From IMG/VR virus record IMGVR_UViG_3300035181_000611, positions 1 through 37,028 of that record: a stretch of 37,028 nucleotides of DNA; one strand, written 5' to 3'. This document shows, one piece after another, positions 10,014 through 23,351 of this stretch. The notes beneath the pieces are model-generated. The model saw only the letters and a program-made list of their open reading frames with translations. It searched no databases and was not told the DNA's origin. The stretch comes from a virus. Positions within the stretch are counted from its first letter, which is position 1, and each line of letters opens with the position of its first letter. The position numbers and the translations under genes were made by a program.

Positions 10014-11489
10014 ATGGCAAAGCAGCGTAAGGTAAGCATTGTAGCCGCAGCTAACAAAGAAGCAGTAGCACAGGCAGAGGTGCTCAGGCAGGCTACCCAA
10101 GACAGCAAGGTAAGGCAGTCAACGACGGACTCCTTCATAAACCTAGCACAGCGGATGGGCATTGGGGCGGATAATGCACTGACCTCATCCTCGTATGGTT
10201 ACAACCCCATCACCCGCAACCGGGTCATGCTGGAATGGATTCACCGGGGAAGTTGGATCGGTGGGGTTGCAGTTGATGTGGTCGCTGACGACATGACCCG
10301 CGCAGGTGTGGACTTCGAAGGTGAGATTGATGCTGGGGATATGCAGTCCATGCGGGAGTCTGAAGTCAGTCTAGGTTTGTGGAACGCAATCAATGACGGT
10401 ATCAAATGGTCTCGCTTATATGGTGGGGCCATCGTGGTCATGATGATTGACGGGCAGGATATGAAAACCCCGCTTCGTCTGGATACCGTAGCGAAGGGTC
10501 AGTTCAAAGGGTTGATTACTCTTGATCGCTGGATGGTAGAGCCGTCGCTTAACGACCTAGTCACTGACATGGGCCCAAACATTGGGATGCCAAAGTTCTA
10601 CCGCTGCAATAGTGGAGCGCCTGCATTCCAAGGGAAGCTGATTCACTTCTCCCGCGTCATCCGACTGGAGGGCTTAAAGCTGCCCTACTGGCAACGGGTG
10701 ACGGAGCAGCTGTGGGGCCTATCGGTGCTGGAAAGGATCTATGATCGCATGGTAGCCTTCGACTCGGCAACTACTGGTGCAGCTCAGCTTGTATACAAAA
10801 GCTACCTCCGCACTTTGAAGGTTAAGGATATGCGTGAGATCGTATCAAGCTCTGGAGCAGCGGTGGATGGTTTGGTCAAGTATGTGGAGATGATGAGGCG
10901 CTTCCAGGGTATTGAAGGCATCAGCCTTATCGACGCTGAGGATGATATCAGCTCGGAGCAGCACGGCGCCTTCAGTGGGCTGTCGGATGCACTTACCCAG
11001 TTCGGGCAGCAGCTTGCCGGTGCACTGCAGATTCCACTGGTAAGATTGTTTGGCCAGTCGCCCTCAGGCTTCAGCACTGGGGATGCCGATATGCAGAACT
11101 ACTACGACGGCATCTACCAAAAGCAGGAAAAGGAATTGCGGGTAGGCGTGACGAACATCTACCGATGCCTAGCTGCCTCAGAAGAGGTGGAGCTGCCAGA
11201 AGGCTTCCGCGTTAAGTTCAACTCGCTGTGGGAAATAGACTCCGAGAAGAAAGCTAACATCGCCACAAGCCTTACCAACGCGGTTATTGCAGTCCATACC
11301 GCTGGGCTTATCAGTGACCAGGTTGCTCTACAGGAGCTGCGGCAGTCATCGCATGAGACGGGCATCTTCACTAACATCACTGAAGAGCTTATTGAGCAGG
11401 CCAGTGAAGACCCAGTACCGCCAGCAGATCTTGCAATGGCAGAGGAAGGTGCAGACGATGGGAATGATGGTGCAGACAGTCAACCGTAA
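10014..11489 (+). CDS. Portal protein (DUF1073 type)
   Basis: 491 aa. The N-terminal region NLAQRMGIGADNALTSSSYGY followed by LEWIHRGSWIGGVAVD and DDMTRAGVD is characteristic of the DUF1073 (Phage_portal_3) family. Twelve copies form the ring through which DNA enters and leaves the head and to which the neck attaches. A typical helical wing and stem follow (SSGAAVDGLVKYVEMM, QLAGALQIPLVRLFGQSPSGF). The C-terminus is an acidic tail, without the extra domain that some relatives carry (the Acb1 anti-CBASS nuclease). Its last 32 nt overlap the minor head gene. Confidence 0.92.
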   Translation: MAKQRKVSIVAAANKEAVAQAEVLRQATQDSKVRQSTTDSFINLAQRMGIGADNALTSSSYGYNPITRNRVMLEWIHRGSWIGGVAVDVVADDMTRAGVDFEGEIDAGDMQSMRESEVSLGLWNAINDGIKWSRLYGGAIVVMMIDGQDMKTPLRLDTVAKGQFKGLITLDRWMVEPSLNDLVTDMGPNIGMPKFYRCNSGAPAFQGKLIHFSRVIRLEGLKLPYWQRVTEQLWGLSVLERIYDRMVAFDSATTGAAQLVYKSYLRTLKVKDMREIVSSSGAAVDGLVKYVEMMRRFQGIEGISLIDAEDDISSEQHGAFSGLSDALTQFGQQLAGALQIPLVRLFGQSPSGFSTGDADMQNYYDGIYQKQEKELRVGVTNIYRCLAASEEVELPEGFRVKFNSLWEIDSEKKANIATSLTNAVIAVHTAGLISDQVALQELRQSSHETGIFTNITEELIEQASEDPVPPADLAMAEEGADDGNDGADSQP

Positions 11490-12249
11490 GACGATTGATG
11501 CTTATCGCACCAGAGCCAAAATTGCCCGGGAGCGTTTCAACAACTCCCGCAAGGCGGAGAAGTCTTACGCAAGACAGTTAAGGCAGGTGGCTAAGCAGAT
11601 CGGGAGCATCATCAATGGCATGACTGACCCCAACTTCTTGCCTAATGAATCCAAGATGCGGGCTGCCCTGCAAAAGTACAGCGAGCTGCTTAATCCATGG
11701 GCAAGGTCGGTGGCTAAGAAGATGCTAGATGAGGTAGGCCTGCGAGATGCTAAGGCCTGGGCTGAATACGGGGATGACCTAGGTAAGGCCCTACGGCAGG
11801 AGGTTTTAACAGCGCCTACTGGGGCCTGGTTGGTCTCAATGCTGGAAGAGCAGGTCACTTTAATCACAAGCCTGCCCCTCAAAGCTGCAAAGCGTGTGCA
11901 TGACCTGACTTTGAATGGTTTGGCTGAAGGCACCCGCGCTGCGGATATTGCCAAAGAGATTATGAGGACAGGCAAGGTAACCGAAGGCAGAGCAAAGCTG
12001 ATCGCACGAACTGAGGTAGCTCGCACCGCTGCTGGCCTGACAATGGCACGCGCCACTCATGTTGGAAGCCCGGGTTACTTCTGGCGCACTGCAAAGGATG
12101 CAGACGTCAGGCACAGTCACAAGCTTATGGAAGGGAAGTATGTGGAATGGGATAAGCCTCCCACCCTTGAAGATGGTACCGTTACCCATGCTGGTATGAT
12201 TTACAACTGTAGGTGTTATGCCGAGCCCTACTTACCGGAGTTGGATTGA
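11458..12249 (+). CDS. Minor head protein (Mu gpF / SPP1 gp7 family)
   Basis: 263 aa from ATG 11458, which is preceded by AGGAAGG at 8 nt. This places the start inside the portal gene, a common arrangement. The C-terminal third carries the family signature: ARTEVARTAAGLTMARA, then FWRTAKDADVRHSHKLMEG and a terminal NCRCYAEP. The N-terminal half is helical and basic. Proteins of this family ride in the prohead in a few copies and may help portal incorporation or early DNA delivery. Stop and next start overlap (TGATG). Confidence 0.9.
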   Translation: MGMMVQTVNRKTIDAYRTRAKIARERFNNSRKAEKSYARQLRQVAKQIGSIINGMTDPNFLPNESKMRAALQKYSELLNPWARSVAKKMLDEVGLRDAKAWAEYGDDLGKALRQEVLTAPTGAWLVSMLEEQVTLITSLPLKAAKRVHDLTLNGLAEGTRAADIAKEIMRTGKVTEGRAKLIARTEVARTAAGLTMARATHVGSPGYFWRTAKDADVRHSHKLMEGKYVEWDKPPTLEDGTVTHAGMIYNCRCYAEPYLPELD

Positions 12250-12647
12250 TGAAACTACTAAAATTTATATTTTGCTCAGCGATTTGGCTCCTAGCATTTT
12301 TACCGATGGTACTCCTGAGCTTTGCGGTAGTGCCTATTATGTGCCTGACTAACTGGGATGGTAAGACTACCTGGTTCGGTAACTTTAAATATGGTAGAGG
12401 GGATACCCACTACAAGGCGCCCTCGAATGGCAAGTACTGGTTACAGCTGCGGTTCCTGTGCATTCGGAACCCAGTCAGCAACTTCGGGAAATGGGTGCTA
12501 TCGGTAGTCGATGCCCCTTGGGTATGGTTGATCGATGCCAAGGTGTACAAGAACTTCTACTGGAAGTTCGGCTGGAAGGGTCCAGACCCCAACGCAGCTA
12601 TTAAGTTACGCACCTTCGTCTACCGCCCTTGGCTTCACAGGAACTAA
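12249..12647 (+). CDS. Small membrane-anchored phage protein
   Basis: 132 aa from ATG 12249 (TGATG overlap). Residues about 4-32 form a strong N-terminal membrane helix (FIFCSAIWLLAFLPMVLL). The rest is rich in Trp, Tyr and Phe, with RNPVSNFGKWVLSVVDAPW and FYWKFGWKGPDPN. I have seen this FG-W-K-x-G pattern in uncharacterised phage membrane proteins next to head genes (a DUF7338-like group), but the role is unknown. It is an odd gene to find between minor head and protease, so it may be an accessory insertion in the head operon. Confidence 0.7.
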   Translation: MKLLKFIFCSAIWLLAFLPMVLLSFAVVPIMCLTNWDGKTTWFGNFKYGRGDTHYKAPSNGKYWLQLRFLCIRNPVSNFGKWVLSVVDAPWVWLIDAKVYKNFYWKFGWKGPDPNAAIKLRTFVYRPWLHRN

Positions 12648-12650
12648 ATC

Positions 12651-13289
12651 ATGGCAAAACATATTCACATCCACCTCCCCAAGAATGCCATCCCGGCTCT
12701 GCTGCTCCCTAAGAAGACGCAGGACGCGGAAGCATACAAGGCAACCTACGAGCAGTCGAAGTTCGGTAAGAAAGGGTACCGGCCGAAGGTTCTGGGCAGC
12801 GACGGCAGAACGGTGTTCCTGAGCCAGGCTTCCTTCCTCACCGAGATGGAGGCTATTCGGGTAGCCCAGAGCTACGCCGACCAGCTGAAGCGCGGGGTAG
12901 GCGAACCAAGAACCCCGTTCCAGGGCACCGCCGATTCCGACAAGACCGGAAACGATGCCTTGGGCGAGTTGCGTCGGAAGCGCCAGCGCCTTGAAGAGGA
13001 GCTGGACAAGTCTGACGACTCAGGGGACAACCGGCAGATGGACCGCATCAAGAAGGAGCTTGCCCAGGTCAACAAGTCCATCAAGGAGGTGGAGAAGAAG
13101 GATACCAAGGATGCCGACCACAAGTCATTCACTTCGATCTACTCTACCGCACGCGATAAGGCTGCCGGGAAGGTGTATAAGGTGGTGGCGCAGGATGCCA
13201 AGAGTAAGGACCAGGTTAGATACCTGCTCCTGAAAATGCCCCATGCAAACGTTTGGTGGTCTATCGATAAACTGGAGCCCGTGATATGA
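12651..13289 (+). CDS. HIHIH-motif protein, 212 aa
   Basis: Begins MAKHIHIHLPK: a His-x-His-x-His strand at residues 4-8. Then comes a small domain (residues about 25-85) with KFGKKGYRPKVLGSDGRTVFLSQ broken by short strands. A charged coiled-coil stretch follows (GELRRKRQRLEEELDK, DRIKKELAQVNKSIKEVEKKD), and the C-terminal domain has a VYKVVAQDAKSKDQVRYLL strand pair. No known family recognised. It sits 3 nt after the previous gene and overlaps the protease gene by ATGA. It is one of four small genes here that open with the same histidine strand. Metal binding or packing against a beta sheet are possible roles; none is proven. Confidence 0.72.
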   Translation: MAKHIHIHLPKNAIPALLLPKKTQDAEAYKATYEQSKFGKKGYRPKVLGSDGRTVFLSQASFLTEMEAIRVAQSYADQLKRGVGEPRTPFQGTADSDKTGNDALGELRRKRQRLEEELDKSDDSGDNRQMDRIKKELAQVNKSIKEVEKKDTKDADHKSFTSIYSTARDKAAGKVYKVVAQDAKSKDQVRYLLLKMPHANVWWSIDKLEPVI

Positions 13290-14710
13290 AATACAGATTC
13301 CATTCAGTGGAGCAGCTAGGCAAGAAGCGCAGTCTGACGCCGGAAGGCTTCTTGGTCTGCGAGGACGTGCCCATCTCTCGCACTGGCACGATGATGTATG
13401 GGCCTGACGAACTGCCTATTGATGGCAGTAAACAAGGCTACGTGAAGATCAAGCGGGATGCAGCCGACCTGTTCAATGAAACCACTATTGCCAGCTTCAT
13501 GGGCAAGGCAGTTACGATCAACCATCCAGAGGAGGATGTAAACCCTAACAACTGGCATGACTTATCAGTGGGCGTAGTCCATAACGTGCGGCGAGGAGTA
13601 GGTATTGAGGACGACCTACTACTGGCTGATTTATTCATCACCAACAAGGATGTCATCGCCCAGCTATCAAACGACCTGATAGAAGTATCGGCTGGGTACG
13701 ATGCAGACTATGAGGAGACTGGACCAGGAGAAGGAGCCCAAACAAACATTGTAGGGAATCACGTAGCGTTGGTTGAATCGGGTCGTTGTGGACCACGCTG
13801 TTCTGTAAGAGATAGCGACGACCCATCACTTGTAGTTGTTAAAAAGGAGCTTCACATGAAGTTAAAGAAAAAGGGTTTCACCCTTGACGCTTTGCTAAGG
13901 CGAATCCGTAAGGCCACAAAGGATGAGGATCCTGAGGCACTGGAAGCAGCACTAGCAGAAGCTGAAGAGGGTGGCGTAACTGAAGACGACGCCTTGCCGG
14001 AAGCAGCCGATCCCGGTGACATCCATGTTCACATTCACAATGGTGCTGCCGAGACTCTGGGCACGACTACGGTGGAGGATGAGGTACCGCCTGCGGATGA
14101 AAAGAAAGGCACCTATGATGATGAACTCGGTGGTCGTATTGATGCACTAGAAGCTGGGCATACAGAAATCCTTGCCCAGCTGGCAGCCATCAGCGAGAAG
14201 CTTGGCGGCGGTGGGGGCAGCACTGACGATGCAGAGAACGAAGAGCTGAAGGAAGAGATGAAGAAGGAAGATGAATCTGGGGCTACGAATGATGCAGCCT
14301 TTAAATTCACGGACTCCGCATTCCTATCCAAGTCCTTCCGTGATACGATGTCGAAGGCTGAAATCCTGGTACCGGGCATTCGTGTTCCGACCTACGATGC
14401 CAAAGCACCGGCCCACATCACCTTCCGCAAGATCTGTGGCACCCGCCGCACTGCTCTTGACTTAGCCTACGCTCAGCCTGCTACGCGCAGTGTCATTGAT
14501 GATGTGTTGGATGGAAAGCATCTCGACACTCACAAGATGACCTGTGATGCAGTTCGCCAAGCTTTTGATGCCTCGGTACTGGTGCAGAAACGTTCCAACA
14601 ACCACCAGTCTCAGCACTCAGGCTCTCAACCAGCCAAACAAGCCGGGGCTACTATCACAAGTATCTCTGACCTCAACAAGGCCAATTCTCAGTTTTGGGC
14701 CGACAAATAA
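13286..14710 (+). CDS. Prohead maturation protease with C-terminal scaffold (DUF2213 type)
   Basis: 474 aa. The protease part, residues 1-180, has FMGKAVTINHP with H80, LIEVSAGYDADYE with S135 and GNHVALVESGRCGPRCSVRD with H159, matching DUF2213 prohead proteases of the herpes-assemblin type fold. Residues about 190-474 are an acidic, helical scaffold-like region (DEDPEALEAALAEAEEG, EELKEEMKKEDESG). It contains an embedded HVHIH strand at 247-251 and a conserved end (SVIDDVLDG, then DAVRQAFDASVLVQKR). It shapes the prohead and then cleaves itself and capsid parts. An internal start at 13856 probably yields scaffold alone. Confidence 0.87.
   Translation: MKYRFHSVEQLGKKRSLTPEGFLVCEDVPISRTGTMMYGPDELPIDGSKQGYVKIKRDAADLFNETTIASFMGKAVTINHPEEDVNPNNWHDLSVGVVHNVRRGVGIEDDLLLADLFITNKDVIAQLSNDLIEVSAGYDADYEETGPGEGAQTNIVGNHVALVESGRCGPRCSVRDSDDPSLVVVKKELHMKLKKKGFTLDALLRRIRKATKDEDPEALEAALAEAEEGGVTEDDALPEAADPGDIHVHIHNGAAETLGTTTVEDEVPPADEKKGTYDDELGGRIDALEAGHTEILAQLAAISEKLGGGGGSTDDAENEELKEEMKKEDESGATNDAAFKFTDSAFLSKSFRDTMSKAEILVPGIRVPTYDAKAPAHITFRKICGTRRTALDLAYAQPATRSVIDDVLDGKHLDTHKMTCDAVRQAFDASVLVQKRSNNHQSQHSGSQPAKQAGATITSISDLNKANSQFWADK
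13844..13849 (+). promoter_or_regulatory. Internal ribosome-binding site for scaffold
   Basis: AAGGAG in a run TTAAAAAGGAGCTTCAC sits 6 nt before an in-frame ATG at 13856, inside the protease/scaffold gene and exactly at the boundary between protease domain and scaffold region. This is the strongest Shine-Dalgarno in the gene. Confidence 0.75.
13856..14710 (+). CDS. Scaffold protein from internal in-frame start (putative)
   Basis: 284 aa, identical to residues 191-474 of the protease/scaffold protein, beginning MKLKKKGFTLDALLRRI. The start is supported by a well-spaced AAGGAG and by lying just after the last protease motif. The layout matches lambda C/Nu3, where a protease-scaffold fusion and a shorter scaffold come from one gene and the short form is made in excess. 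Expression from this site is an inference from sequence. Confidence 0.66.
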   Translation: MKLKKKGFTLDALLRRIRKATKDEDPEALEAALAEAEEGGVTEDDALPEAADPGDIHVHIHNGAAETLGTTTVEDEVPPADEKKGTYDDELGGRIDALEAGHTEILAQLAAISEKLGGGGGSTDDAENEELKEEMKKEDESGATNDAAFKFTDSAFLSKSFRDTMSKAEILVPGIRVPTYDAKAPAHITFRKICGTRRTALDLAYAQPATRSVIDDVLDGKHLDTHKMTCDAVRQAFDASVLVQKRSNNHQSQHSGSQPAKQAGATITSISDLNKANSQFWADK

Positions 14711-16820: not shown

Positions 16821-17270
16821 ATGACGGCAGTAGACTTTAGAAGGGACTTTCCAGCCTTCATTGATAGTAATGCGTATCCCGGGCCCGTTATTGATATGTA
16901 CCTTGGAGTTGCACTAACGCTACTCCGCCCAGAAAGATGGACTACGGCACTAGATTATGGTACCGGATTATTTGTAGCACATAATTTGATGCTAGAGGCC
17001 AAGGAAATGGCATCAGCTGCCAATGGCAAGACCTCTAGCAGCACAGCAGGACCAATCTCCAGCAAGTCAGTAGGCGGCATTAGCGTCAGCTACGACAGCT
17101 CCTCAGGGGTAGAGGTTGGTGCAGGTCATTGGAATGACACGACGTATGGCAGGCGCTTCATTCGACTTGCTAAGATGATGGGCGCCGGCCCAATCACAAT
17201 CATGCCTAGTGGGATGCCCCAAGGATTTGACGGTGCGTGGCCCGGGGTGACTACCTTCGGGAGCATGTAG
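16821..17270 (+). CDS. Head-tail connector protein (DUF4054 type)
   Basis: 149 aa after AAGGAGCCCAAG. It starts TAVDFRRDFPAFIDSNAYPG and has DYGTGLFVAHNLMLEAKEM followed by a Ser/Gly linker (TSSSTAGPISSKSVGG) and a conserved end (GAGHWNDTTYGRRFIRLAKMMG broken here for length). This is the layout of DUF4054 adaptor proteins, which bind the underside of the portal in the neck. Context fits: directly after the capsid genes and before the tail genes. Confidence 0.86.
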   Translation: MTAVDFRRDFPAFIDSNAYPGPVIDMYLGVALTLLRPERWTTALDYGTGLFVAHNLMLEAKEMASAANGKTSSSTAGPISSKSVGGISVSYDSSSGVEVGAGHWNDTTYGRRFIRLAKMMGAGPITIMPSGMPQGFDGAWPGVTTFGSM

Positions 17271-17272
17271 CA

Positions 17273-17518
17273 ATGACCCTCCACATCCATATTCATAAAA
17301 GCAGGGATTCGTATACCGGACCAAAGTACGCCGTGATTAAGGCCGGGGATCATCCCACCTTAGGTTATCCAATCTGGGATATCTACGATAATTTCGGCAA
17401 GAAGATTTGTCGAGTGGATAGTATCCAGAGGCTTCACCGGGTAGTAGAAGAATCAGAGAGGGACTGGCTCAAAGAGCATCTCGAAGAGATTAAGAAGGCG
17501 GAGAAGGCTAAAAAATGA
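17273..17518 (+). CDS. HIHIH-motif small protein, 81 aa
   Basis: 81 aa from ATG 17273, with GGGAG 9 nt upstream inside the end of the connector gene. It opens MTLHIHIHKSRD (histidines at 4, 6 and 8). A small strand-rich region follows (YAVIKAGDHPTLGYPIWDIYD) and then a charged helix ending KKAEKAKK. No recognised family. Inserted 2 nt after the connector stop and overlapping the next neck gene by ATGA, it interrupts a normally conserved neck gene order. It shares its N-terminal strand with the genes at 12651, 18386 and 21130. Confidence 0.7.
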   Translation: MTLHIHIHKSRDSYTGPKYAVIKAGDHPTLGYPIWDIYDNFGKKICRVDSIQRLHRVVEESERDWLKEHLEEIKKAEKAKK

Positions 17519-18006: not shown

Positions 18007-18389
18007 TGGCTGATTTAGATATCTCGGAGTTGCTGGAAGATCCAGACTTTGCTGATGAGTGCACTGTTATCCGCAGGCGTCAGGTAGTGGATGATAATGG
18101 CAGGTCGTCGGATGTCAACACTACCTTCGATTCAATCGTTATGAATATAACGCCTGCCGGAAGGAATGACGTAGAGCGGTTAGATGATAGCCAGAGGCAG
18201 CTAAGAGCCATCAAAGCCATTACCCGCTTTCGGTTGCAGGGTCCGACTATTGGGATGAATGCAGACCTGGTGAATTGGCAAGGCAGTATGTACCTAGTGG
18301 CAGTAGTTGATCCCTACACCCAGTTCGGGGGTGGGTTCGTCGAAGCCGTTTTAGTTTCCACCAACATGCAAGAGAGTAAATTCAAATGA
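18006..18389 (+). CDS. Head-tail stopper/adaptor protein (putative)
   Basis: 127 aa. A short acidic N-terminus (DISELLEDPDFADE) is followed by a beta-rich domain (CTVIRRRQVVDDNGRSSDV, ITRFRLQG, MYLVAVVDPYTQFGGGFVEA). Size, the position between gp10-like and tail terminator genes, and the G-x-F-V-E-A-x-L end match head-closure or stopper proteins that plug the connector. Overlaps its upstream neighbour by 1 nt and the next by ATGA. Confidence 0.72.
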   Translation: MADLDISELLEDPDFADECTVIRRRQVVDDNGRSSDVNTTFDSIVMNITPAGRNDVERLDDSQRQLRAIKAITRFRLQGPTIGMNADLVNWQGSMYLVAVVDPYTQFGGGFVEAVLVSTNMQESKFK

Positions 18390-18586
18390 GCAAACATATC
18401 CACGTACACCTTGGCGCCAAAACAAAAGATGCCGATAATTTAACCTCTCTTATTTCCAAGATTTCAGCTCTGCAGAAAGACATTGATGATGCCCAACGTC
18501 CGGAAAACCCAACTTCAAAAAACAAAGCGTTAGAACGGGCCGGTGACTATCTACGCCAAGCTAAACGCGTATTGATGTTCACCTAA
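18386..18586 (+). CDS. HIHVH-motif small protein, 66 aa
   Basis: 66 aa starting MSKHIHVHLGAKTKDAD, with histidines at 4, 6 and 8. The rest is a helix-turn-helix-like coiled pair (SLISKISALQKDIDDAQ and ALERAGDYLRQAKRVL). The stretch after the histidine strand, (K)TKDxx then two helices, aligns by eye with the gene at 21130, so the two look like diverged copies. It is placed between stopper and tail terminator with an ATGA overlap. Function unknown. Confidence 0.7.
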   Translation: MSKHIHVHLGAKTKDADNLTSLISKISALQKDIDDAQRPENPTSKNKALERAGDYLRQAKRVLMFT

Positions 18587-19164: not shown

Positions 19165-19176
19165 GAAGGAAACATG

Positions 19177-20667
19177 ATGGGAACTAACGCATTACCAATC
19201 TCGAGGCTCGTAAGCGTCCAGGTTAACCTGACTCCTGCCGCAGCCCAAATCCAAAATCTATCCACCATGCTTATCCTGGGCAGTTCCTCAGGAGTCATTG
19301 ACACGGTAGAGCGGGCACGCTCTTATATCGGCATCGATGAGGTAGCAGCAGACTTCGGCACCACGGCAGCAGAGTACCTGGCCGCCGTGCTGTGGTTCGA
19401 ACAAGCTCCTCAACCTACCAGTCTGATGATTGGCCGCTGGGCACAGGCCGCCACACACGGGAAGCTACTGGGAGCCACCCTTGCTCCGGCCAATCAGTTA
19501 ATCTCGGTATGGAATGCTATTACCACAGGATCACTGAAGGTAACTGTGGATGGGGGTTCACTGCAAACGATCACCGGATTAAACTTTTCCGCCCAGACCA
19601 ACCTGAATGGGGTAGCCAGCGTACTACAAGCGGGCATCACTGGGGTCACTGTGCTATGGAACTCTACCTACCAGCGTTTTGAGTTTACCAGCAACACGAC
19701 CTCCACGACCTCCACGGTCTCCTTCATGACCGCTGGAACAACAGGTACGGATATCACCGGTCTGTTGGCAACCCTTGCCACCTCCTCCGGCGCTTATGTT
19801 GCTCAGGGCATTGCAGCAGAGACCGCATTGGCAGCAGTTACGATCATGGATCAGCAGTTCAGCGGCAAGTGGTATGCCCTGACCTGCCTTGGTGCAGCCG
19901 ACTCAGACCACCTGGCCATTGCTCCTTACATCGAAGCAGCTAACACGAAGCATGTGTACGGGGTTACTACGCAGGAAGCAGGTGTCTTGTCAGCAGTCAG
20001 TACCACCGACATTGCCTATGTACTGTCTCTGCTGAAGTATAAGAAAACCGTGGTCCAATACAGCAGCGGCAACCCCTACGCAGTATGCAGCCTGCTCTCT
20101 CGCATCCTCACGGTTGACTATACCGGTAACAACACAGTCATCACGCTGATGTACAAGCAGGAACCGGGCATCGTAGCCGAGGATATCGGGCCTTCACAAG
20201 TAGCTGCCCTGGAAGCGAAGAACTGCAACGTGTTTGTGAACTACAACAACAACACAGCAATCATTGAAAACGGTGTGATGACCTCCGGGGACTTCATGGA
20301 TATCATCACGGGCACTGATTGGCTGTCGCTTGATATTCAAACTGCTGTATACAACTTGCTGTATACCAGTACCACCAAAATACCGCAAACTGATACAGGA
20401 ATGAATCTCATCCTCACTACGGTTGAGAATGAATGTTCACAAGCGGTAACCAATGGACTGCTGGCTCCCGGGGTTTGGAATAGTGGGGGCTTTGGTAGCC
20501 TGCACCAAGGAGATTTCTTATCCAAGGGTTTCTACTGCTACGCTCCGCCCATGTCAAAGCAGAACCAGTCGGACCGTGCGGCTCGAAAAGCACCCACAGT
20601 GCAGGTAGCCTGTAAGTTAGCGGGTGCAATTCACACCGCGAACGTCATCATCAACGTCAACCAATAA
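19177..20667 (+). CDS. Tail sheath protein (DUF3383 type)
   Basis: 496 aa from the second of two adjacent ATGs; AAGGA lies 6 nt from 19177 but only 3 nt from 19174. The N-terminal LPISRLVSVQVNLTPAAAQ, AADFGTTAAEYLAAVLWFEQ (split) and IGRWAQAA, together with the C-terminal KAPTVQVACKLAGAIHTANV, are typical of DUF3383 sheath-like proteins. The sheath contracts to drive the tube into the host, so the phage is a myovirus. The middle GSLKVTVDGG-SLQTITGLNFSAQ region is the outer domain. The next gene is the tube. Confidence 0.9.
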   Translation: MGTNALPISRLVSVQVNLTPAAAQIQNLSTMLILGSSSGVIDTVERARSYIGIDEVAADFGTTAAEYLAAVLWFEQAPQPTSLMIGRWAQAATHGKLLGATLAPANQLISVWNAITTGSLKVTVDGGSLQTITGLNFSAQTNLNGVASVLQAGITGVTVLWNSTYQRFEFTSNTTSTTSTVSFMTAGTTGTDITGLLATLATSSGAYVAQGIAAETALAAVTIMDQQFSGKWYALTCLGAADSDHLAIAPYIEAANTKHVYGVTTQEAGVLSAVSTTDIAYVLSLLKYKKTVVQYSSGNPYAVCSLLSRILTVDYTGNNTVITLMYKQEPGIVAEDIGPSQVAALEAKNCNVFVNYNNNTAIIENGVMTSGDFMDIITGTDWLSLDIQTAVYNLLYTSTTKIPQTDTGMNLILTTVENECSQAVTNGLLAPGVWNSGGFGSLHQGDFLSKGFYCYAPPMSKQNQSDRAARKAPTVQVACKLAGAIHTANVIINVNQ

Positions 20668-20677
20668 GGAGCCATAA

Positions 20678-21127
20678 ATGGCTAACAGAGTTTATTCGTT
20701 CCTAGATATCCATGCCTCCCTCGTGGGGCCCGGCGTCGCTATTTCTTTAGGCTCAGGCGCAGGTACCGCCGAAGAAGGCATCTCCATTGATGCAAGTGGA
20801 GAGATTGACAGTATGATGATCGGCTCGGATGGTACCCCGATGCACAGCCTTCATGCTGACAGGTCAGGCAAGGTAACAGTACGACTGCTGAAGACTTCTC
20901 CCTCTAATGCAATCCTATCTACTGCCTACGCCTTCCAAACTGCTTCTGGTCTGACCCACGGCCAGAACACACTGACCATTTCCAACCCGGTAACTGGGGA
21001 CGTAATCACTTGCCAGGCAGTTGCTTTCGCTAAAGCCCCTAGTATCAAGTACGCCAAAGAAGGCGGCGTACAAGAATGGGAATTCAACGCAGGAATTATT
21101 GATCGCACACTAGGCGCAGGTATCTAA
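20678..21127 (+). CDS. Tail tube protein (DUF3277 type)
   Basis: 149 aa after AAGGAGCCATAA. It starts VYSFLDIHASLVGPG and contains SGEIDSMMIGSDGTPMHSLH, KVTVRLLKTSPSNA and EWEFNAGIIDRTLGAG. This is the conserved layout of DUF3277 tube proteins, small beta barrels stacking as hexamers inside the sheath. It directly follows the sheath gene. Confidence 0.9.
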   Translation: MANRVYSFLDIHASLVGPGVAISLGSGAGTAEEGISIDASGEIDSMMIGSDGTPMHSLHADRSGKVTVRLLKTSPSNAILSTAYAFQTASGLTHGQNTLTISNPVTGDVITCQAVAFAKAPSIKYAKEGGVQEWEFNAGIIDRTLGAGI

Positions 21128-21129
21128 TT

Positions 21130-21366
21130 ATGAACACGAAATATCAAGGCAAGGTACATATCCATATCCACCAGGCTACGAAGGATGGCGTTGCTGATAT
21201 CGCTTCCTGTAACAGCTACATACGCAAGATTCAAGCTGCCTCTCGGGATTTAGTACTACTTAAAGAATCTGGGCTTTCGGAGTTTTCTGTCAAGGACAAC
21301 CTATCCAATTGTCAGGAGCTGAAATCCCAGATCAACAAACTTGTAGCATCTTTAAATAAACTTTAA
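21130..21366 (+). CDS. HIHIH-motif small protein, 78 aa
   Basis: 78 aa. The N-terminus MNTKYQGKVHIHIHQATKDG has histidines at 10, 12 and 14. Two helices follow (CNSYIRKIQAASRDLVLL and CQELKSQINKLVASLNKL). The plan matches the gene at 18386: histidine strand, TKD turn, helical hairpin. ATG lies 2 nt after the tube stop with no strong ribosome-binding site. It separates the tube from the tail chaperones, which are normally neighbours, and so looks like an inserted accessory gene. Confidence 0.68.
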   Translation: MNTKYQGKVHIHIHQATKDGVADIASCNSYIRKIQAASRDLVLLKESGLSEFSVKDNLSNCQELKSQINKLVASLNKL

Positions 21367-21377: not shown

Positions 21378-21779
21378 GTGAGTGAAGTAACCGTAGGTGA
21401 GCATAGGTACCGCATCGACAAGCTAGATGCGATGAAACAGTTCCATGTGGCGCGTAGATTGGTGCCCGTGCTTGCAGCCTTTACCAAGATTGGCGATAAC
21501 TTCCAGCAGGCTAAGGCTGGCGGCGTTCAAAACGTAGGGGTGGCAGCAATGCTACCCATCGCCGAAGCAATTTCGCACATGAGCGATGTGGATTCGGAAT
21601 ACATTGTGAATACCTGCATGGCGGCAGTATTTAAGTTTGACAGTGAACGCTGGCATCCCATGATGATTCAAGGTGCGTTCGTGTACCAAAATACTACCAT
21701 GGCAGATCTGGTGAAGCTGACCTCGGAGGTCATCATGGACAACCTCGGGGATTTTTTCTCAGGCCTCCAAACGACTTAA
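21378..21779 (+). CDS. Tail assembly chaperone, short form
   Basis: 133 aa from GTG 21378. It is mostly helical after a short beta start (VTVGEHRYRIDKLDAMKQFH), with a conserved middle VARRLVPVLAAFTKIG and end SEVIMDNLGDFFSG. Size and place between tube and tape measure identify it as the G-type tail chaperone, which coats the tape measure and recruits tube protein. The heptamer T TTT TTC at codons 125-127 of this frame lets some ribosomes shift by -1 into the next feature. Confidence 0.85.
   Translation: MSEVTVGEHRYRIDKLDAMKQFHVARRLVPVLAAFTKIGDNFQQAKAGGVQNVGVAAMLPIAEAISHMSDVDSEYIVNTCMAAVFKFDSERWHPMMIQGAFVYQNTTMADLVKLTSEVIMDNLGDFFSGLQTT
21752..21758 (+). promoter_or_regulatory. Programmed -1 frameshift site (T TTT TTC)
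   Basis: In frame GAT-TTT-TTC, the canonical X-XXY-YYZ heptamer T TTT TTC lies 19 nt before the chaperone's stop codon. After a -1 slip the frame is open without any stop from 21758 through 21976, joining the DUF6889-like sequence. The internal ATGs of the second frame (21806, 21815) have no ribosome-binding site. Known tail chaperone pairs (lambda G/GT and many myoviruses) use the same device at this spot. Confidence 0.8.
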
Positions 21780-21805
21780 TACCTTCCCAGCTATCCCCGG
21801 TACCA

Positions 21806-21976
21806 ATGCTATCCATGTCAGATGACACTGACTGGCTGCTACGTCCTGTGATGGCTGGCAAGTGTCGGTACGAGAGCCTCAAGGATGGTAGTTTGGACTT
21901 GCTAGATATTGCCATACTGAATGAAGCCCTCGACGTGGAGGCCGAAAATCAAAATAGGTTGAGAAACCATGAATGA
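21806..21976 (+). CDS. Tail assembly chaperone, frameshift extension (DUF6889-like)
   Basis: 56 aa if read from ATG 21806; the natural product is more likely the -1 fusion with the upstream chaperone, about 199 aa in total. The sequence includes DDTDWLLRPVMAGKCRYESL followed by KDGSLDLLDIAILNEALDV and AENQNR. This is the pattern I know for the small DUF6889-like protein that always follows the first chaperone. It overlaps the tape measure start by 8 nt. Confidence 0.82.
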   Translation: MLSMSDDTDWLLRPVMAGKCRYESLKDGSLDLLDIAILNEALDVEAENQNRLRNHE

Positions 21977-23351
21977 AGATGTTCTACATGAGTTCCTAGT
22001 AAAGCTTGGTTTCAAGGTAGACAACCTGGCCCAGAGCAAGATGGAAGGTTCCATCATGATGCTAACCAAGCGGGCTGCGGGCTTGGTATCTGGACTACTT
22101 GCGGTAACCGCCGCCGCGGAAGTAATGGTCAAGAGCTTTTCCACTCAGATGGAGAAGCTGTTCTACGCGTCACAGCAGACTGGGGATTCGGCCGGTCACC
22201 TACAGGCATTCGCACGCGCAGCTAAACAGATTGGTATAGATGGGGACGAAGCTCTTGAGTTTGTCAAGAACTTTGATTTAGCTCTTAAGGCGAACCCAGG
22301 CCTCCAGCAGCTTCTATCGGGTATGGGAGTTAAAGGCGGGGATGATACTGAGAAGCTGTTCAGCTTCATTAAGAAGTTGAAGGGAATGCCCGATTCTATG
22401 GCATTCCAATTCGCTAGTCAGTTTGGCGTTAATCCAAGTAGCTATCTCAGGATGAAGAACAACCTGCCTGAGATGGAGAAGTACTATGAGCAGGAGAAGA
22501 AGCGCCAGGCAGAAAATGGAACTGACGTAGGCGAGCAGGCCCGTAAGATGCGGGAGTTCGACCAACAGCTTGCAAAGGTGTCGGATAGTTTTACTACCTT
22601 AGGCCAACAGCTTGCAGTTTTCATACTTCCAGTACTGACAAAAATAAATGAACTATTGGATAGTGCTATCAAAGCGAGTTCGAGAACACCTAAGCAGATA
22701 GCAGATAGCAGAAACCAGTTCTCCAAGGACCATCCTGTATTCGCTAAATTAGCGGAGTCGCTGTTCGGGGCACCACCGCCCGCTGGGCCAACGGCGGTGC
22801 CAAGCGTGACCTACGGAAAAACCACAGCCAAGCAGCAGTTCGAAGCCTTGCAGAAAAAGTACGGGGTGCCCGCTGAAATTTTATACAAGATGTGGGGCCA
22901 AGAATCCAATTACGGCCGTAACATGGGACCCTCAAAAGCTGGGGCATTGGGACACATGCAATTCCTACCCGGCACCGGTGCTGATTATGGTCTGAAGAAC
23001 CCAGGTGACCATAAAGACTTCTACAAGTCTACTGACGCTGGTGGTAGGTACATGCGGGATCTTCTAGGAAGGCATCATGGAGACATGGCGATGGCACTTG
23101 CAGCGTACAACTGGGGAGAAGGGAATCTGCAGAAGTATGGTCTTGGTAGGGCCCCAGCAGAAACGCGCAAGTACCTGAACAACATCCTCGGTGCTGGTAA
23201 CTGGGATAAGAACGGCATGGTGCAGCACAACACCACAAAGATTGACGTCCATAGCACCGCGCCAGCGAATGAGGTTGGTAGGGCGGTAGCTGATAAGCAG
23301 TCCGACGTGAATGCTCGCGCAGCGCGCAATCTGGGAGGTAGAATACAATGA
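21969..23351 (+). CDS. Tape measure protein with lytic transglycosylase domain
   Basis: 460 aa. The N-terminal 280 residues are mainly helical, with one hydrophobic stretch at about 37-54 (AGLVSGLLAVTAAAEVMV) and coiled-coil-like charge patterns (MEKYYEQEKKRQAEN, KMREFDQQLAKVSD). Residues about 288-410 form a soluble lytic transglycosylase-type domain: YKMWGQESNYGRNMG with catalytic E312, GALGHMQFLPGTGADYG and MALAAYNWGEGNLQKYG. It sets tail length and, on injection, would open peptidoglycan. 460 aa is short for a tape measure, predicting a short tail. Starts 8 nt before the chaperone extension ends. Confidence 0.88.
   Translation: MNEDVLHEFLVKLGFKVDNLAQSKMEGSIMMLTKRAAGLVSGLLAVTAAAEVMVKSFSTQMEKLFYASQQTGDSAGHLQAFARAAKQIGIDGDEALEFVKNFDLALKANPGLQQLLSGMGVKGGDDTEKLFSFIKKLKGMPDSMAFQFASQFGVNPSSYLRMKNNLPEMEKYYEQEKKRQAENGTDVGEQARKMREFDQQLAKVSDSFTTLGQQLAVFILPVLTKINELLDSAIKASSRTPKQIADSRNQFSKDHPVFAKLAESLFGAPPPAGPTAVPSVTYGKTTAKQQFEALQKKYGVPAEILYKMWGQESNYGRNMGPSKAGALGHMQFLPGTGADYGLKNPGDHKDFYKSTDAGGRYMRDLLGRHHGDMAMALAAYNWGEGNLQKYGLGRAPAETRKYLNNILGAGNWDKNGMVQHNTTKIDVHSTAPANEVGRAVADKQSDVNARAARNLGGRIQ

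Follow-up and report, generated by a model that had tools for sequence, protein, structure and literature searches.

The gpG/gpG-T frameshift of phage lambda was reportedly described by Xu et al. in 2004. In lambda, the pair immediately precedes the tape measure gene, and its slip site is G GGA AAG. In systems of this G/GT type the two forms are made in constant proportion, the long one being the less abundant, and neither is present in the virion. Passages of one report describe the G/GT frameshift as widely conserved in long-tailed phages and state that a low shift rate suffices in lambda, at a ratio of 30:1 (PMC5009743). Burkholderia phage Magia and Klebsiella phage Mulock carry TAC and DUF6889 homologues in the same order as the locus considered here, in each case annotated as a joined CDS. 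A programmed frameshift is stated in a passage of the Magia paper (PMC7883833); a term search of the Mulock paper (PMC6856289) did not return the word frameshift.

The DNA that we analyzed, hereafter the window, is an IMG/VR virus record of 37,028 bases. It contains a chaperone ORF and a -1 frame extension in which the overlap is open throughout, an in-phase X XXY YYZ motif lies close to where the first ORF ends, and the pair sits between a tube-like gene and a tape measure gene. Given how widely the G/GT frameshift is conserved among long-tailed phages according to that report, the window locus belongs to this already known lambda kind. By analogy, it would share with gpG/gpG-T a short chaperone, a rarer -1 extension, a slip late in the first ORF and action together with the tape measure. 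The locus differs from lambda in its slip sequence, T TTT TTC, and in having an extra ORF (21130-21366) between the tube and chaperone genes. It also differs from Magia, where the slip sequence is CCCTTTT, and from Mulock, where GGGAAAT, AAATTTT and TTTTTTG are stacked in place of TTTTTTC; the window chaperone has 27.3% protein identity with each of its two counterparts. What is new here is the family-wide case, built from sequence comparison, that DUF6889 is probably expressed as an extension of the chaperone. Among open-licence papers, searches found none naming DUF6889 and none combining DUF3277, DUF3383 and frameshift.

Identity and layout of the locus

The chaperone ORF matches Pfam PF21822 Phage_TAC_15 over residues 7-129 (2.7e-23, 83.3 bits against a cut-off of 22) and phrog_1688, tail assembly chaperone (3.1e-29). 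The extension matches PF21829 DUF6889 (3.9e-16, 59 bits against a cut-off of 23.9) and phrog_4364 (3.8e-19), whose PHROG function label is unknown. Pfam likewise lists DUF6889 as being of unknown function, whereas here it is tied to the Phage_TAC_15 chaperone through reading frame and slip site. AlphaFold (AF2) models of the chaperone and the extension are confident, with mean pLDDT values of 90.8 and 86.1, respectively, and the top viral fold match of the chaperone model is a predicted tail assembly chaperone of another phage (E 1.6e-9). Solved structures gave no credible match to either half by sequence or by fold, and NCBIfam profiles matched neither. A preliminary description of this DNA had the frameshift joining two tail chaperones; the joined product stands as the prediction, but the second ORF is a 72-residue extension domain, DUF6889, and not a chaperone.

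The phage is of the contractile-tail type, and the features of the locus are collected in Table 1. The tape measure ATG lies within the end of the extension, the two reading frames sharing 8 nt. Five ORFs of this phage contain a motif resembling His-Ile/Val-His-Ile-His, near the start or internally; no credible match was found for the four searched against NCBIfam or the one searched against Pfam. The variants are MAKHIHIHL, LHIHIHK, MSKHIHVHL, VHIHIHQ and DIHVHIHN.

Table 1. Features of the tail chaperone locus and of the His-motif ORFs in the window.
Feature	Position	Strand	Remarks
Sheath (DUF3383)	19174-20667		Name taken from annotated relatives
Tail tube-like structural protein, KPP10_Orf10 (PF11681)	20678..21127	+	Pfam 6.2e-47; tube name from annotated relatives
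78-aa ORF	21130-21366		Between tube-like gene and chaperone
Tail assembly chaperone, short form, 133 aa	21378..21779	+	GTG start, strong Shine-Dalgarno
Slippery heptamer T TTT TTC	21752..21758	+	In phase, codons 126-127
Dual-coding overlap, slip site to zero-frame stop	21759..21776	+	0-frame SGLQTT; -1 frame LRPPND
-1 frame extension DUF6889, 72 aa plus stop	21758..21976	+	Pfam PF21829, phrog_4364
Tape measure-type protein with SLT transglycosylase domain	21969..23351	+	Pfam SLT 7.8e-15; phrog_2276 tail length tape measure 2e-22
ORFs with HIHIH-like motif	12651-13289, 17237-17518, 18386-18586, 21130-21366, inside 13286-14710

Reading frames at the slip site

The heptamer lies, as had been described, in the frame of the chaperone ORF, where the zero-frame codons read GAT TTT TTC (21750-21758). 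Its distance to the TAA stop (21777-21779) had been given as 19 nt; we count 18. The -1 frame contains a TGA at 21644-21646 and is thereafter open until the TGA at 21974-21976, which bears out the earlier observation of an open frame running into the extension. The predicted fusion comprises 127 + 72 = 199 aa, the size that had been estimated. Because 53 slippery heptamers of the type scanned occur in 37 kb (+ strand, all frames), a lone T TTT TTC proves little. A single heptamer in the window having so little force, the weight of the argument rests on comparative evidence.

Conservation of the slip site

Relatives of the chaperone were found in 35 phage records and relatives of the extension in 36. 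The loci compared are 17 phage loci together with IMG/VR loci found via the chaperone or via the extension, with the best 80 matches retained in each of two of the searches. Both halves were found in all 182 sequences, which form 111 clusters at 90% nucleotide identity. Counted among the 182 are the window itself, a copy of it (L001) and two loci whose chaperone is 100% identical. In every one of the 182 loci examined, the extension lies in the -1 frame relative to the chaperone.

We scanned for in-phase X XXY YYZ heptamers with Y = A or T. Of the 111 clusters, 101 have such a heptamer within the final 75 nt of the chaperone; in the three preceding 75-nt blocks, only 0, 4 and 2 clusters have one. 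Synonymous shuffles (n=200) gave a heptamer in 20.4 +/- 3.5 clusters, with a maximum of 29; the clusters are related by descent, and these and the other shuffle statistics therefore overstate independence. Within the last 75 nt, phase 0 accounts for 147 hits and phases 1 and 2 for 26 and 4. With the nearly invariant Phe 126 as the anchor of the alignment, every NNY codon at position 125 has T as its third base (110 of 110, compared with 1247 of 4047 elsewhere), and TTT is the codon for Phe 126 in 100 of 102 cases (180 of 494 elsewhere). This restriction of the slip codons to NNT TTT goes far beyond what codon usage would give. Nine of the 111 clusters have Thr or Ile at position 126, with G GGA AAT one codon earlier, and the slip types among the relatives include T TTT TTN, C CCT TTT, A AAT TTT and G GGA AAT as well as stacks of two or three motifs.

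The pattern recurs in a replication set of 47 bacterial-genome loci, for which the extension served as the only query. The set was left unclustered, and many of its members are close relatives of one another (Photorhabdus, Acinetobacter). All 47 have the extension in the -1 frame, 37/47 carry a canonical heptamer, 45/47 have TTT at codon 126 and 43/47 encode Arg in the -1 frame after the slip.

A canonical heptamer is lacking at the site in ten clusters (L012, L059, L069, L086, L087, L095, L122, L147, L151 and L166), all of which retain T_TTT, and in ten of the 47 bacterial-genome loci (L188, L191, L197, L214, L217, L220 and L225-L228), often with G CCT TTT instead. The latter count against a strict heptamer rule. 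Taken together, the heptamer-less sequences suggest that P-site re-pairing can be imperfect in this chaperone family. Across both sets, nearly all of these relatives keep a T TTT tetramer, as in G CCT TTT. Passages of a study in E. coli report that tetramers of the T_TTT type shift if a stimulator is present, place U_UUU_UUC in a shift-prone class and list H_HH.U_UU.Y, the class of the window heptamer, among the efficient classes (PMC4066793). The family offers a natural series of slip-site variants at one aligned position, in which it could be tested which motifs work in bacteria.

Dual coding in the overlap

Substitutions were counted per 0-frame codon position in 45 ungapped pairs with at least 70% identity. 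Upstream of the slip site the values at positions 1, 2 and 3 are 0.21, 0.13 and 0.38; in the overlap they are flat (0.14, 0.18 and 0.17); and past the zero-frame stop they become 0.08, 0.34 and 0.12. The periodicity thus follows the 0 frame upstream of the site and the -1 frame past the stop, flattening out between the two, which indicates that the protein frame changes and that both frames are constrained in the overlap. Between the slip and the zero-frame stop, a -1 frame stop occurs in 0 of 111 clusters, compared with 20-44 per synonymous shuffle (n=300). Just past the slip, the -1 frame retains an Arg in 98 clusters, against a shuffle maximum of 69. At the level of sequence, these comparisons establish the site and the frame relation, show that both are conserved and reveal selection on both reading frames.

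Stimulators of the shift

No downstream stem-loop is evident in the window: folding of the downstream region gave z values of +1.66 (50 nt), +1.67 (67 nt) and +0.11 (a third stretch), and a further folding test gave z +2.2, again with no stem-loop. An SD-like stimulator was not found at the right distance (energy -3.0 kcal/mol), and an Rfam search returned 0 matches. In the family as a whole, the folding of downstream stretches is slightly more stable than that of controls, with z below -1.5 in 35 of the 111 clusters as compared to 15 of 111 control stretches.

Model for expression and alternative explanations

We consider that a programmed -1 frameshift at T TTT TTC makes a 199-aa chaperone-DUF6889 fusion beside the 133-aa form, a reading to which the compared sequences lead us to assign a probability of roughly 0.93. 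It agrees with the preliminary description, and it draws its support from the frame relation, the slip site, the constraint on the slip codons, the conservation of the -1 peptide and the substitution pattern. In this model, the majority of ribosomes would translate 21378-21779, terminate and release the 133-aa product. In a minority, the P-site tRNA on TTT and the A-site tRNA on TTC would slip one base back onto TTT TTT, and the shifted ribosomes would continue in the -1 frame through DUF6889 to the stop at 21974-21976. We infer that slippage takes place in the host at a low rate. As in lambda, the chaperone part may coat the tape measure protein and the DUF6889 part of the long form, the less abundant of the two, may recruit the tube protein; by the same analogy, the ratio of short to long form would matter.

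One alternative is that the extension is a separate small protein with its own start, the ATG at 21806 or the one at 21815, where ribosomes that have terminated at the TAA at 21777 might re-initiate. Both ATGs are present, and the extension has been given its own CDS in 6 of 14 annotated relatives. However, in line with the earlier remark that these ATGs have no ribosome-binding site, their anti-SD energy of -3.1 kcal/mol is at background, equal to the median of ATGs on the + strand of the window, whereas the GTG of the chaperone has -16.8. In the family, 39 of 111 clusters contain at least one start in the extension whose anti-SD energy reaches -6.5 or better, so that a minority could also start separately; against this, ATG is absent before the invariant Pro in 64 clusters, and in 25 there is no ATG, GTG or TTG at all from the slip to that residue. 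Selection on -1 reading is, moreover, already apparent upstream of those starts, and separate initiation leaves both the NNT TTT constraint and the constant -1 relation unexplained. We therefore regard it as very improbable for the window.

Two further explanations concern the heptamer itself. The fusion might arise by transcriptional slippage on the run of six consecutive T residues, and T7 is the last heptamer at 22 of 101 sites; yet such a run of six is absent from 40 of the 101 canonical sites (CCCTTTT/C, AAATTTT, GGGAAAT and GGGTTTT types lacking T TTT TTN), and codon phase is fixed at the sites, which that mechanism does not require. This makes a transcriptional origin extremely unlikely. 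That heptamer and open -1 frame coincide by chance, with the 133-aa protein the sole product, could draw on the commonness of such heptamers in the window, but it is contradicted by all of the comparative tests (frame, slip site, codon constraint, substitutions and replication) and by the extension being a conserved Pfam family, and we give it next to no credence.

The programmed frameshift could also set tape measure output, such that one slip event would fix both the ratio of long to short form and the amount of the ruler protein. Mainly shifted ribosomes would then reach the junction of extension and tape measure and re-initiate there. The idea arises because the tape measure start overlaps the extension end, and commonly so in the family: of the 111 clusters, 107 have a long downstream ORF, and in 75 of these a tape measure-type start overlaps the end of the extension. 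In the window, the start at 21969 has a weak SD (-4.5 kcal/mol). We consider such coupling unlikely.

Annotation of DUF6889

DUF6889 is best read as a frameshift-made C-terminal domain of Phage_TAC_15 chaperones, which corrects its annotation. Three of the 17 phage loci are unannotated; among the 14 that are annotated, two join the frames, six show the extension as a separate gene and six omit it. In two Klebsiella phage records (L019 and L025), the extension is labelled 'NTP pyrophosphohydrolase', a name very likely given to the DUF6889 domain in error. In the record of phage Mulock (L010, MN098327.1), the long downstream ORF at 10796-12712 is named 'tape measure chaperone'; by its position, this ORF is the tape measure gene.
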